From assembly GCF_010093345.1 (NCBI RefSeq), contig NZ_PDWT01000002.1, forward strand, positions 1 through 64,000: a stretch of 64,000 bases of DNA, written 5' to 3'. The notes beneath the pieces are model-generated. The model made no database searches, was not told the origin of the DNA, and saw only the letters and a program-made list of their open reading frames with translations. The position numbers and the translations under genes are program-made. Below are positions 44,649 to 48,658 of this stretch, piece by piece. Numbering within the stretch: the stretch's first letter is position 1; the number at the start of each line of letters is the position of its first letter. This DNA comes from Pseudoxanthomonas yeongjuensis. GTDB taxonomy: Bacteria > Pseudomonadota > Gammaproteobacteria > Xanthomonadales > Xanthomonadaceae.

Positions 44649-45701
44649 TCACGGCGCTTCGACGAACGGCGCGGTTTCCTCGCCCGCCGCCTCTACTTCC
44701 ACCAGCCGCGTCATCAACAGCGACAACGTGACCACGTCCTGGTGGTTGTGCGCGGCGACGCGGCGCAGGTTGCGCGTGGATCCGCCGCGCAGGTAATTCA
44801 GCCAGGCGGCGGGGGCCTCCGACCCGGGCAGGTCGTCCTCGCGCACGATGCGCAGCAGCTCGCGTTCGATCGTCGCCAGCCGGCAGTTTTCCCAGATGCC
44901 GCGATAGCGGCGGCGGGTGGGAAATAAGAGGTCGACGTGGTCCAGCGGCGTGATCGGATCTTGCTTGCGCGCCAGCCGGTAGCGGGTCTTCAGCAGTGGC
45001 GAGTCGTAGCAGCGGCCGTTGTAGCTGGACAGCACGGTGTCGGCGCGCAACCAACCGGTGAATGCGTCGAGCATCGCCGCTTCCGCACCGAGCGTGGAGA
45101 TCAGCAGCTGGCGCACGCGCAAACCATCCCCATGCCAGTCCGCCGCACCGATCATGAAGGCGCGGGTGCCGGTGCCGCCGGCGAGGCCGGTGGTTTCGGT
45201 GTCGAAGAACAGCAGGTTGCGCGGGTCGACCGATTCGCCGTGACGTTTGGCGAAGGCGAGCGACAGGTCGAAATCGGGCGCGGGCATCGGCAGATGGGTT
45301 TCGATCAGGCGCAGGCCGGGGGAAATTTCTTCGCCCGGGAGGTCGCGGTCGAGGGGTTTGCGTGGCGCAGCCGGAGAGGAAGTCTTCTCGCGAAGGCCTA
45401 GAAGTCGCCGCAATGTGTCGATCGATTGCGAAGCTGGCGCTTCTGCCCCCTCCCTTTCGCGTAGCGAAGGGGGGCTCGAAGCCGCCTCAAGCGGCTGAGG
45501 GGGAGGGGTGCCTTTGATCTTTCTGCTGCTGTTGTTGGTCAATAAAAGCGCGTCTTCGGAAGATTCAAAATCCAGATCAAGAGCATCCCTCCCCCTCAGC
45601 CGCTCGTCGCGGCTTCGAGCTCCCCTTGCTTCGCAAAGGGAGGGGGCAACAGCACCCGCCTCGCGCTTCAACGCCCGCAATTTCTCAAGAGAAATGCTCA
45701 C
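44649..45701 (-). CDS. mrfB: MrfB/YprB-like ribonuclease H-fold exonuclease
   Basis: The protein is about 350 residues from the GTG at 45701. The exonuclease core has LLFFDTETTGLAGGTGTRAF near residue 160, SSYNGRCYDSPLLKTRYRL, and a C-terminal HNHQDVVTLSLL, giving the DEDD acidic residues. In Bacillus, MrfA helicase and MrfB exonuclease repair mitomycin C damage, and the pair here has the same order. About residues 19-86, between SLEKLRALKRE and SIDTLRRLLGLRE, are encoded by a repeat element. So the N-terminal linker is unusually long. The start codon has a weak ribosome site. Confidence 0.82.
   Translation of the reverse strand: MSISLEKLRALKREAGAVAPSLCEARGARSRDERLRGRDALDLDFESSEDALLLTNNSSRKIKGTPPPQPLEAASSPPSLREREGAEAPASQSIDTLRRLLGLREKTSSPAAPRKPLDRDLPGEEISPGLRLIETHLPMPAPDFDLSLAFAKRHGESVDPRNLLFFDTETTGLAGGTGTRAFMIGAADWHGDGLRVRQLLISTLGAEAAMLDAFTGWLRADTVLSSYNGRCYDSPLLKTRYRLARKQDPITPLDHVDLLFPTRRRYRGIWENCRLATIERELLRIVREDDLPGSEAPAAWLNYLRGGSTRNLRRVAAHNHQDVVTLSLLMTRLVEVEAAGEETAPFVEAP
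45445..45647. repeat. 203 bp inverted-repeat element inserted in frame in mrfB
   Basis: Arms of about 64 bases (45445-45509 and 45584-45647) are inverted copies with some mismatches. They have GCCCCCTCCCTTTCGC outside and AAGCCGC...GCGGCTGAGGGGGAGGG inside. They enclose about 74 bases of more AT-rich sequence. The mrfB frame reads through the whole element without a stop. Confidence 0.8.
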
Positions 45702-45723
45702 GGCGCGGCCACCGGTGCATGGC

Positions 45724-45816
45724 GTAGGAGCGACGTAAGTCGCGAAGAACATCTTCCGTTCGGGCAAGGGGCGCTCCGAATGTGGGTCATTGTTTCGCGA
45801 CTTACGTCGCTCCTAC
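45724..45816. repeat. REP inverted pair
   Basis: GTAGGAGCGACGTAAGTCGC and its inverted copy GCGACTTACGTCGCTCCTAC span the gap between mrfA and mrfB. The centre carries a second short palindromic piece, GCAAGGGGCGCTCC. Confidence 0.8.
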
Positions 45817-45824
45817 GACGGAAA

Positions 45825-48266
45825 TCAAGCACGTTCGTTCTTTCCCAGCAGGCCCAGTACCTCCAGGGCCAGCGACTTCGGCGTCGCCAGCTGCTTGTCC
45901 TCATGCGCCGCCAGCACCGGCCCCACGCAGGCCGGACAACCGGCCACGCAATCACAACGCCCGACCAATTCGCGCGCGCGCTGCACCAGCTCCGCCTGTC
46001 GCTCCCACAGCGGTTCGCTCAAGCCCACGCCGCCGGGAAAGTTGTCGTACAGATACACGGTCGGCACGAACTGCTGCACTTCCACCATCGCAACCGCCTT
46101 GCCCGCATCGTCCTGCGCACGCCCATTGCCCTTGCCATCCTGCGTCGCGAACCACGCCCCATCGCCGTTGCCCACCGATTTCTGCAGATCGCGCGCATCG
46201 GCCATCACCGCCACCGTCGCCACCACATGCAATGCGTAGGCCGCGCCGAGGAAGCCATCCAGCGCGTCCTGCTTCGACGCGAATGACTTCAGCAACACCG
46301 CCTGCGGCAACTGCCACCACACCGCGGTGGTGTGCAGTTCCTGGTCGGGCAGGTTGACCGGTCCGTAGCCTATGTTCTCGTGCGTGTAGTAGCGGATCTT
46401 CTTGTAGCCGGCCACGCGCCGGACCACGTGCACTTCGCCGTGGTGGGAATCGCCATCGCCCGCGCCGCAACCGTCGAAGCGTTCCAGCACCTTGAGTTTG
46501 GTGAAATCGATACTGTCGGTGTAGTAATCGACATGGGTGCGGGTGACATAGGCCTTGCGCCCCTCCCAGTCCAGCCGTTCGACCTGATACGGCGTGCTCT
46601 GCACCATGTGGATCGCGCCTTCGTACAGGGTCAGCGCGGCGGCGGAGTAATCCACTTCGCACAGGATCACCTGGCGGCCGTCGGTCTTGTCCACGACCAC
46701 GAAGTTGCCGTCGGCCACCGAGCGCAAGCTCACCGCCTGCGCCGGATAGCTGTCGGCGATCCATTCCCAGCGCTCGCCTTCGCGATGCACCACTTCGGTT
46801 TCGGCCAGCGCTTCCAGATACACCGACGGATCGATGGGGCCGAAGGCTTCACCGACCAGGAACGGCAGTTCGAAGGAACCGCAACGGATGTGGTCGAACA
46901 GGATCAATGGTTGGTCCGGGGCGATGCGCGCGTGTTCCGGCGGCGCGTCGGCGAAGAAATCCGGGTGCCGCACCACGTATTGGTCCAGCGGTTGCGAACT
47001 GGCGACCAGTACACCGAGCGAAGGTTGCTGGCGGCGGCCCGCGCGGCCGAAGCGCTGCCAGGTCGCGGCCACCGTGCCGGGATAGCCGTTCAACACCACC
47101 ACGTCCAGGCTGCCGATATCCACGCCCAGCTCCAGCGCGGAGGTGGCGATGATGCCGTCGATGCGTCCGGCGCGCATGGCGCGTTCGGCTTCGCGGCGCT
47201 CGGTCGGCAGGTAGCCGCCGCGATACGCGCGGATCCGTGGCGGTTTGCGCGGGTCGTGGTCGAACACATCCTTCAGATACTTGGTCAGCACCTCCACCAT
47301 CAACCGGCTCTGCGCGAACACCAATGTCTTCAGCCCCGACTTGATCGCGATGCGGGCGATGCGGTTGCTCTGCGAACGCGCCGAGGCGCGCAGGCCAAGA
47401 TCGGCGTTGACCACCGGCGGGTTCCATAGCAGCACGTGCTTGTCGCCGGTGGGCGCGCCGGATCCGGTGATCGCGTGCACACGGTCCTCGATCAGCGCTT
47501 CGCAATGCGCCTGCGGGTTGCCGATCGTGGCCGAGCACAGGATGAATTGCGGTTTGACGCCGTAGAACGCGCAGATGCGCTTGAGCCGGCGCAGCACGTT
47601 GGTGACGTGGCTGCCGAACACACCGCGGTAGGTATGCACCTCGTCGATCACCACGTAGCGCAGGTTCTCGAAGAACTGCGCCCACTTGGTGTGGTGCGGC
47701 AGGATGGCCTGGTGCAGCATGTCCGGATTGCTGACCACGATGTCGCCATGCAGGCGGATCGCCTGACGCGCATCGCCGGGGGTGTCGCCGTCGAAGGTGA
47801 ACGCCTTCACCCCCAGCTCGCCGGCGCGGTTCAGCTCCAGCAGTTCGGCGACTTGATCCTGCGCCAGCGCCTTGGTCGGGAACAGATACAAGGCCTTGGC
47901 ATTGCCGGTCATCGCCGCGGCCACCACCGGCAGGGTGTAGCAAAGCGACTTGCCCGACGCGGTCGGGGTGACGATGGCCACGTGCTCGCCGGCCTGCGCC
48001 GCGCTCCACGCCTCGGCCTGGTGGCTGTAGAGCTGGTCGATGCCACGCGCCCGCAGCGCCGCGTTCAGTTGCACCGGCACGTCATCGGGAATCGGCGCGT
48101 AGCTCCCCTCGCGCCCGGGGATCATGAAATTGCCGGTGATGCGGTCGGCGTAGCGCTTCGACAGCCGGGCAGTCAGCAGGCCGCCGTCGCGGCTCATTCG
48201 CCCATCTTCGAGCGTTGAGAGCGCCCGCTCCTGGTCTTCGGTGCGTTTGGCGAGGGCGAAGGCCAT
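45825..48266 (-). CDS. mrfA: MrfA/YprA-like DEAD/DEAH-box helicase with C-terminal zinc site
   Basis: The 813-residue superfamily 2 helicase has a Q-like QLYSHQAEAW near residue 77, Walker A TPTASGKSLCY near 98, DEVH box VIDEVHTYRG near 205, and C-terminal helicase motifs DIGSLDVVVLNGYPGTVAATW and RFGRAGRRQQ near 400. The C-terminal MrfA domain ends with a four-Cys cluster CDCVAGCPACVGP. In Bacillus MrfA is a 3'-5' helicase working with MrfB in excision repair. It is upstream of mrfB on the same strand with a REP pair between. The first ATG is kept, and an ATG at residue 24 is possible. Confidence 0.88.
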   Translation of the reverse strand: MAFALAKRTEDQERALSTLEDGRMSRDGGLLTARLSKRYADRITGNFMIPGREGSYAPIPDDVPVQLNAALRARGIDQLYSHQAEAWSAAQAGEHVAIVTPTASGKSLCYTLPVVAAAMTGNAKALYLFPTKALAQDQVAELLELNRAGELGVKAFTFDGDTPGDARQAIRLHGDIVVSNPDMLHQAILPHHTKWAQFFENLRYVVIDEVHTYRGVFGSHVTNVLRRLKRICAFYGVKPQFILCSATIGNPQAHCEALIEDRVHAITGSGAPTGDKHVLLWNPPVVNADLGLRASARSQSNRIARIAIKSGLKTLVFAQSRLMVEVLTKYLKDVFDHDPRKPPRIRAYRGGYLPTERREAERAMRAGRIDGIIATSALELGVDIGSLDVVVLNGYPGTVAATWQRFGRAGRRQQPSLGVLVASSQPLDQYVVRHPDFFADAPPEHARIAPDQPLILFDHIRCGSFELPFLVGEAFGPIDPSVYLEALAETEVVHREGERWEWIADSYPAQAVSLRSVADGNFVVVDKTDGRQVILCEVDYSAAALTLYEGAIHMVQSTPYQVERLDWEGRKAYVTRTHVDYYTDSIDFTKLKVLERFDGCGAGDGDSHHGEVHVVRRVAGYKKIRYYTHENIGYGPVNLPDQELHTTAVWWQLPQAVLLKSFASKQDALDGFLGAAYALHVVATVAVMADARDLQKSVGNGDGAWFATQDGKGNGRAQDDAGKAVAMVEVQQFVPTVYLYDNFPGGVGLSEPLWERQAELVQRARELVGRCDCVAGCPACVGPVLAAHEDKQLATPKSLALEVLGLLGKNERA

Positions 48267-48658
48267 GGTGTGGATCCATGCGACAGGGGCTGAGGATTGG
48301 ACGCTGGGGGCTTCTCACCTGGTGAGATTGGGGCTGGTCTTCCACAGTCGAACAGCAGGCTTGATCCCTTCTCCCCTTGCGGGAAGAGGTGCCCGAAGGG
48401 CGGAAGGGGGGTGGCAGGCGAAGCCTGCTGCCTCTTGTCTCGACAGATCAAGCCTGTGGATGGGTCTCCTGCGTGGTTGAGTTCATCCCTCCGCTTGCCC
48501 CTCTCCCGACGCGCAGGCGCGTCGACCTCTCCCGCAAGGGGAGAGGTGTATTTCATGCGTCCGCCTGAAAGCTGGCCTCCCTACTTCCCGAAATTCCCGA
48601 GCAAACTGCCAACTGGAGATCTCCGGCAGGCGGAGCGGGGACGTCGCATCTACGCCTG
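48267..48658. repeat. Intergenic region with GAGAGG-type hairpin repeats
   Basis: This 392-base gap has no credible gene. It holds a hairpin element at about 48366-48412 (TTCTCCCCTTGCGGGAAGAG then GCCCGAAGGGC). An inverted fragment of the ~200 bp repeat lies at about 48491-48552 (CCCTCTCCCGACGCGCAGGC, then CGACCTCTCCCGCAAGGGGA). A single GTTGAG...GTCTCC stretch between them is unique. Confidence 0.6.

Follow-up and report, generated by a model that had tools for sequence, protein, structure and literature searches.

A dispersed palindromic element probably translated in frame within the predicted disordered tether of MrfB in Pseudoxanthomonas, a site apparently entered by several unrelated repeats

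A dispersed, REP-like inverted-repeat element has most probably entered the disordered tether of the putative nuclease MrfB in a stop-free frame; several Pseudoxanthomonas species have probably kept and translated it since their common ancestor. The case was found in the window, a 64,000-nucleotide stretch of the genome of Pseudoxanthomonas yeongjuensis (G000), and would constitute a defined instance in which dispersed structural or selfish DNA has become part of a protein, related species showing the site occupied, empty or exchanged. The parts of this best explanation that derive from sequence comparison are membership of the repeat family, the position in frame, purifying selection on both sides of the element and the exchange of its heads; the disorder of the tether is a prediction. 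The other named genomes are P. sacheonensis (G033), Pseudoxanthomonas sp. CF125 (G026), P. gei (G019), P. winnipegensis (G004) and P. spadix (G010). The features of the window are as follows:

44649..45701, minus strand: mrfB reading frame (GTG start at 45699-45701, stop at 44649, 350 residues)
45650..45701, minus strand: block 1, conserved N-terminal helix of MrfB, upstream of the element and conserved in orthologues (helix predicted at residues 4-13; mostly synonymous change)
45445..45647, minus strand: inverted-repeat element, 203 nt, read as about 68 residues of mrfB
45572..45646, minus strand: left arm with a long head, scoring 79.9 bits against arm model R1
45522..45571, minus strand: variable spacer separating the arms
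45447..45521, plus strand: right arm with a long head, scoring 76.1 bits against arm model R1
45402..45431, minus strand: block 2, second predicted helix, on the core side of the element (residues 90-99 of the MrfB protein, P0001)
44703..45212, minus strand: RNase_H_2 nuclease core of MrfB (residues 163-332 of P0001; Pfam E 1.6e-40)
45723..45817, no strand assigned: GTAG-type REP pair between mrfA and mrfB, with 24 nt arms that are 100% complementary; separate from the element
45825..48266, minus strand: mrfA-like helicase gene upstream of mrfB (Pfam DEAD, Helicase_C and MZB, the MrfA Zn-binding domain)

The sequence-only reading had described an inverted-repeat element at 45445-45647 that lengthens MrfB by about 68 residues without a stop and leaves the enzyme core untouched, and this description is borne out. 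The inner inverted repeat pairs 45467-45520 with 45574-45627 (54 nt, 87% complementary) and the outer arms pair 45428-45457 with 45635-45664 (30 nt, 83% complementary). As RNA, the 203 nt fold at -143.1 kcal/mol against a shuffle mean of -75.3 (sd 5.0, n=200; z -13.5), with 0 shuffles as good; the form in P. sacheonensis folds more weakly (-88.8 kcal/mol, z -4.4). Only one of the six frames across the 203 bases is stop-free, and it is the frame of mrfB, which is open from the GTG to the stop; the RNase_H_2 match lies downstream of the insert. A search for an Rfam family returned only microRNA hairpin models below the cut-off (best 68.1 bits versus 137), which reflect hairpin shape and no family.

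The gene is presumably mrfB, to judge from an RNase_H_2/DnaQ-like nuclease domain adjoining mrfA (Pfam RNase_H_2 and MZB, respectively); NCBIfam gave no family for MrfB at E<=1e-3. Other repeats are also present around the locus and in the genome: G000 holds 255 matches to the GTAG-type REP pattern at up to 2 mismatches and 73 to the CGTC-type pattern, and the ORFs upstream of mrfA (48300-48560) encode peptides such as SPLAGEVDAPARRERG and PPFGHLFPQGEK, which resemble another dispersed repeat. The MrfB of B. subtilis has a C-terminal TPR domain according to excerpts of PMC11194089, whereas Pfam lists none for the MrfB of the window.

The proposed genome search for further copies of the arms was successful. 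An arm sequence model, built from 16 copies of G000, G033, G019, G004 and G018 (counts in these genomes are thus not blind), finds 26 matches at E<=1e-3 in G000 and has matches in 11 of the 18 other genomes of the genus: 117 in P. winnipegensis, 80 in G018, 59 in P. spadix, 37 in P. sacheonensis, 35 in P. gei, 23 in CF125 and 11 or fewer in five others, with none in the remaining seven. Arms occur with long and short heads; the mrfB arms of G018 and G004 measure 78 and 57 bases, and since the difference of 21 bases is seven codons, the frame is kept. In P. spadix, arm matches recur at near-regular intervals of ~180 bases at G010:C22:85092-85871 and 120295-126015, which look like tandem arrays of the element.

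Eighty distinct places in 11 genomes were examined, mostly the best-scoring ones, which favours intact arms (places fetched twice were counted once). Four of them lie in mrfB (G000, G026, G033, G018) and one inside tsaB (G026), while each of the remaining 75 seemed to lie between genes or at the end of one, or could not be assigned; for these 75, an upstream coding stop lies within 600 bases at 72, within 100 at 51, within 50 at 33 and within 20 at 23. An open frame through the element was flagged at 15 places outside mrfB, and among the 12 inspected (L144, L179 and L216 left out) tsaB is clear and LipB of G002 possible, the rest being antisense frames or upstream of a likely start. At the LipB locus (L171), an element arm stands directly 5' of the conserved part and may be translated as the N-terminus. 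Within G000, mrfB is the sole clear in-frame place among 21. The loci tested include 22 two-arm elements, 20 of which have at least one stop-free frame of six, and all six frames are stop-free in 29 of 90 arms, both being bare counts that carry no conclusion.

The likeness in effect to the palindromic elements of Rickettsia, suggested from the sequence alone, is supported by in-frame copies in mrfB and in the tRNA-modification gene tsaB, and this second host gene strengthens the comparison. The tsaB of CF125 (L299, G026:C5:813263-814093; TIGR03725 E 4.2e-55) contains an in-frame copy of ~48 codons. The site is empty in G000, G019, G004 and G018, where the matched halves lie 6, 12, 3 and 6 bases apart, respectively; in G033 the halves are on two contigs and G003 gave no match. 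No target-site duplication was seen by eye at tsaB, the sole site compared with empty relatives, where the flanks have diverged, and no transposase or parent insertion sequence was identified for the element.

The mrfB insert falls between the conserved N-terminal helix and the nuclease core. AlphaFold2, supplied with 53 of the 96 orthologues described below, models the insert at pLDDT ~40 (below 50 at residues 19-64 and 69-87), predicts helices at 4-13 and 90-99, and assigns pLDDT 90 or more to 155 of 349 residues. The excerpted text of PMC11194089 reports that the N-terminus of B. subtilis MrfB is predicted to be unstructured and that, in an AlphaFold-Multimer model, its N-terminal helix docks into MrfA. 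By these models, the insert most likely lengthens the leash between the N-terminal helix and the nuclease core, and the predicted disorder of the tether is a likely reason for its tolerance.

Alignment of mrfB orthologues places the element among a minority of genes, as it is absent from most of them, and the insertion is not private to the genome of the window: forms of the insert are present in three sister species, and a related arm stands at a different point of the linker in two congeners that are more distant. The orthologue of G003 (a MAG, core 85% identical) has a linker of ~30 residues and no element. The expectation that the conserved sides would join naturally upon removal of the element needs correction, for L016, a close relative that lacks the element, has ~30 linker residues and G000 lacks ~12 core-side codons that its sisters keep. 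G000, G033 and G026 have a common long-head left arm. In the comparison set, whose dispersed copies come from genomes other than G004 and G018, this arm is closest to the mrfB arms of other species, including G018. The arms of G019 and G004 have short heads and are nearest to dispersed copies, one of the two in G019 being nearest to its tandem neighbour. The right arm of G000 is nearest to another G000 copy, and those of G033, G026 and G019 are 95-98% identical to dispersed copies.

Synonymous change (changes/sites) between G000 and G033 amounts to 3.0/18.2 in the left arm, 10.0/13.8 in block 1 and 76.0/178.3 in the core, and between G000 and G026 to 2.0/18.2, 11.0/13.8 and 86.2/175.7. The left arm is thus less diverged at synonymous sites than either block 1 or the core, which argues against simple descent of a tolerated passenger; the pattern would follow either from constraint on the DNA or from renewal of the arm through exchange with copies elsewhere in the genome. 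The spacer has changed about equally at synonymous (7.8/14.2) and non-synonymous sites (26.2/51.8). The insert is dynamic, two head types being exchanged in frame between sister species, and the arm of G004 and G018 may be either the same old insertion or a second one. The notion of a single insertion stands insofar as the element is a dispersed copy lying in frame, and fails as one clean and recent event, given the left arm shared by sisters, the lineage-specific right-arm type and the exchanged heads; moreover, in other members of the bacterial family, repeats of several unrelated kinds have come to lie at the mrfB site.

The evidence for this repeated entry comes from 110 mrfB loci (L013-L042, L051-L130) of the Xanthomonas family and its relatives, which gave 96 linkers after seven duplicate genomes (L051-L055, L061, L078) and seven loci without the searched start motif (L027, L033, L041, L066, L091, L096, L118) were left out; these linkers are not independent, many being from strains of the Stenotrophomonas maltophilia complex. 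The linkers range from 13 to 277 residues, and 18 of the 96 match one of five repeat patterns while 78 match none, a descriptive and not a blind count, as the patterns were written after several repeats had already been seen. The present element occurs in seven linkers (L013-L015, L017, L018, L020, L060), a GTAG-type REP in five (L062, L064, L065, L075, L085), and a GGGAGGGACTTCAGTCCC-type REP (L036, L110), a CGTC-type REP (L021, L022) and a Lysobacter hairpin (L097, L099) in two each. The five patterns had 0 matches in the same loci, whether in the stretch from 1500 to 250 bases before mrfB or over the opening 450 bases of the core, a control that omitted the 250 bases directly upstream of mrfB, where repeats occur in G000, L059 and L069. 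A pattern-free count gives perfect inverted repeats of at least 14 nt in 9/96 linkers versus 0/480 mrfA-side and 0/279 core windows; at a minimum of 12 nt the figures are 13/96 versus 10/480 and 1/279, and at 10 nt 31/96 versus 55/480 and 26/279.

The linker repeats also occur scattered through the genomes tested, with 118 matches in that of L110, 32 and 19 in G007 and G009, and, for L085, L075, L062, L065 and L064, 274, 374, 600, 29 and 66, respectively. The genome of L060 holds 50 element arms, and the GTAG pattern has 20 matches in G005 (L036), a count of the pattern and not of the exact L036 variant. The Lysobacter hairpin is rare, with 6 matches in each of two genomes, whose mrfB linkers hold 3 (Root690) and 2 (L. 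antibioticus 13-6), and 0 and 2 matches in two further Lysobacter genomes. Reversed-pattern controls gave 0 matches except for one in one genome. Taken together, the sequences indicate that the mrfB tether serves as a landing pad on which unrelated families of repeats have settled time and again in this group of bacteria.

One further locus, that of Luteimonas mephitis (L069), resembled a carrier of the present element by eye, but its R1 match falls upstream of mrfB and it was not counted; the matches of L059 and L062 likewise lie outside the gene, upstream and downstream of mrfB, respectively. Certain individual loci deserve mention. In Lysobacter sp. Root690 (L099), three of the six hairpin matches of the genome are inside one mrfB linker. 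The mrfB linker of Stenotrophomonas sp. MMGLT7 (L060) has two element arms in opposite order followed by a long in-frame Ala-Pro tandem repeat. L077 (JAHREJ010000024.1), titled Bacillus subtilis, encodes a Stenotrophomonas-type mrfB and looks like contamination or mislabelling.

The most likely mechanism starts from tolerance. The tether would accept inserts if only its two ends are important and the stretch between them serves as no more than a leash; the site would be reached often, though this is the less firm step, if the repeats favour DNA after stop codons, as the tether follows the stop of mrfA. Selection would then leave only open-frame inserts, and the arms would later be renewed by exchange with dispersed copies or by their reinsertion. 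The mrfB copies lie 178-213 bases after the stop of mrfA (in the clade of the window and G018), farther than most other places, and hence a stop-codon bias explains the hotspot at best in part.

Translation very probably runs through the element. Block 1 is upstream of it and, between the two carriers G000 and G033, its 10.0 synonymous changes compare with only 2.0 non-synonymous changes at 37.2 sites; since it is under purifying selection between carriers, translation must begin upstream and cross the element. This conservation, which extends across the family with mostly synonymous change between carriers, together with a frame that is open in all six Pseudoxanthomonas mrfB genes carrying an arm, makes it very unlikely that mrfB starts downstream and that the element is an untranslated leader, even though the element is close to the 5' end of mrfB and REPs at the N-termini of ORFs are, according to excerpts of PMC3733652, often outside the true gene. 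Skipping of the hairpin by ribosomes or its removal from the message, yielding a protein without the insert, can be credited with hardly any probability: it draws on the extreme stability of the hairpin only, while nothing in the six open frames forces skipping and heads of unequal length have been exchanged in whole codons. Equally improbable is a palindrome that arose by chance in a linker of low complexity, or an error of assembly. Short inverted repeats are indeed present in GC-rich linkers, as the 10 nt counts above illustrate, but the fold (z -13.5), the copies elsewhere in the genome and the insert forms in independently assembled genomes already refute this explanation.

A more serious rival, albeit an unlikely one, is that the insert has been domesticated and is kept for a function, either through a hairpin in the mRNA that determines the MrfA:MrfB ratio or shields the mrfA message, or through a longer tether of use to the enzyme pair. 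The very stable hairpin, the conservation of the arms at synonymous sites beyond that of the flanks and the unrelated palindromes in the same tether of other genera all speak for it. However, the hairpin of P. sacheonensis is much less stable, the spacer changes about equally at both classes of site, linkers vary greatly in length and most match none of the five patterns; besides, between species the mrfB right arms resemble one another no more closely than the dispersed copies do, so that a function specific to mrfB is not needed. Tolerance is accordingly favoured by the weaker hairpin of G033, the freely changing spacer and the 78 of 96 linkers without a recognised repeat. A related and similarly doubtful proposition is that the MrfB tether is a selected landing pad, in which unrelated palindromes are taken up and renewed as the hairpin or the long leash benefits the host or the repeats; if true, it could mean, for example, tuning of a DNA-repair nuclease for which hairpin-forming DNA could itself be a substrate. 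Since unrelated repeats have entered one tether repeatedly, tolerance and benefit can be told apart by direct test, and the case is relevant to the abundance of REPs that excerpts of PMC3733652 report for DNA-repair genes.

With respect to known systems, REPs and REP dimers (GTAG- and CGTC-tagged) are described in the excerpted text of PMC3733652 as short opposed palindromic arms, dispersed and mostly intergenic near gene 3' ends, with some inside ORFs, many of which are DNA-repair genes (recB is hit at roughly the same position in both X. campestris and X. oryzae); mrfB is not mentioned in those excerpts. The present element resembles them in its opposed palindromic arms, forming 22 two-arm elements, and in its dispersed and mostly intergenic location close to gene 3' ends, with 33 of the 75 places no more than 50 bases past a coding stop. 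It differs in having longer arms, and no conserved terminal GTAG or CGTC was seen by eye on 16 aligned arms. Furthermore, G000 has 11 Y1_Tnp (RAYT-like) matches, none of which is within 7 kb of 20 arm-match places (E<=1e-3; contig ends not considered). GTAG and CGTC REPs, as described there, do fit two of the repeat types in mrfB linkers elsewhere. Bacterial MITEs (PMC10969869, in part) are small, non-autonomous inverted-repeat elements that can be intragenic and open, and, compared by description, these and the intragenic enterobacterial repeats (excerpts of PMC2759123) share such properties with the element of the window, for which, in contrast, neither a target-site duplication nor a parent insertion sequence was identified.

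The closest parallel is provided by the Rickettsia palindromic elements (RPE; Ogata et al. 2000 and 2002, via excerpts of PMC10969869 and PMC3733652), which are in-frame palindromic repeats in unrelated genes, nearly half of them reported inside ORFs (PMC10969869). In-frame palindromes in Rickettsia and REPs inside repair genes are therefore already known from the excerpted sources, and the searched literature on Pseudoxanthomonas palindromes and on REPs in disordered linkers held nothing on point, although absence from print is not claimed. What appears new, as far as this literature extends, is that repeats of several unrelated families have entered one and the same protein tether in different members of a bacterial family. 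Compared by description, both systems comprise dispersed palindromic repeats of ~100-200 bp that lie in frame in unrelated genes, are absent from orthologues and add tolerated extra residues, here in mrfB and tsaB, two host genes only and hence a weaker case than that of Rickettsia. The present element belongs to other bacteria and has another sequence; moreover, nearly all of its examined copies look intergenic, and one tether takes several unrelated repeat families.
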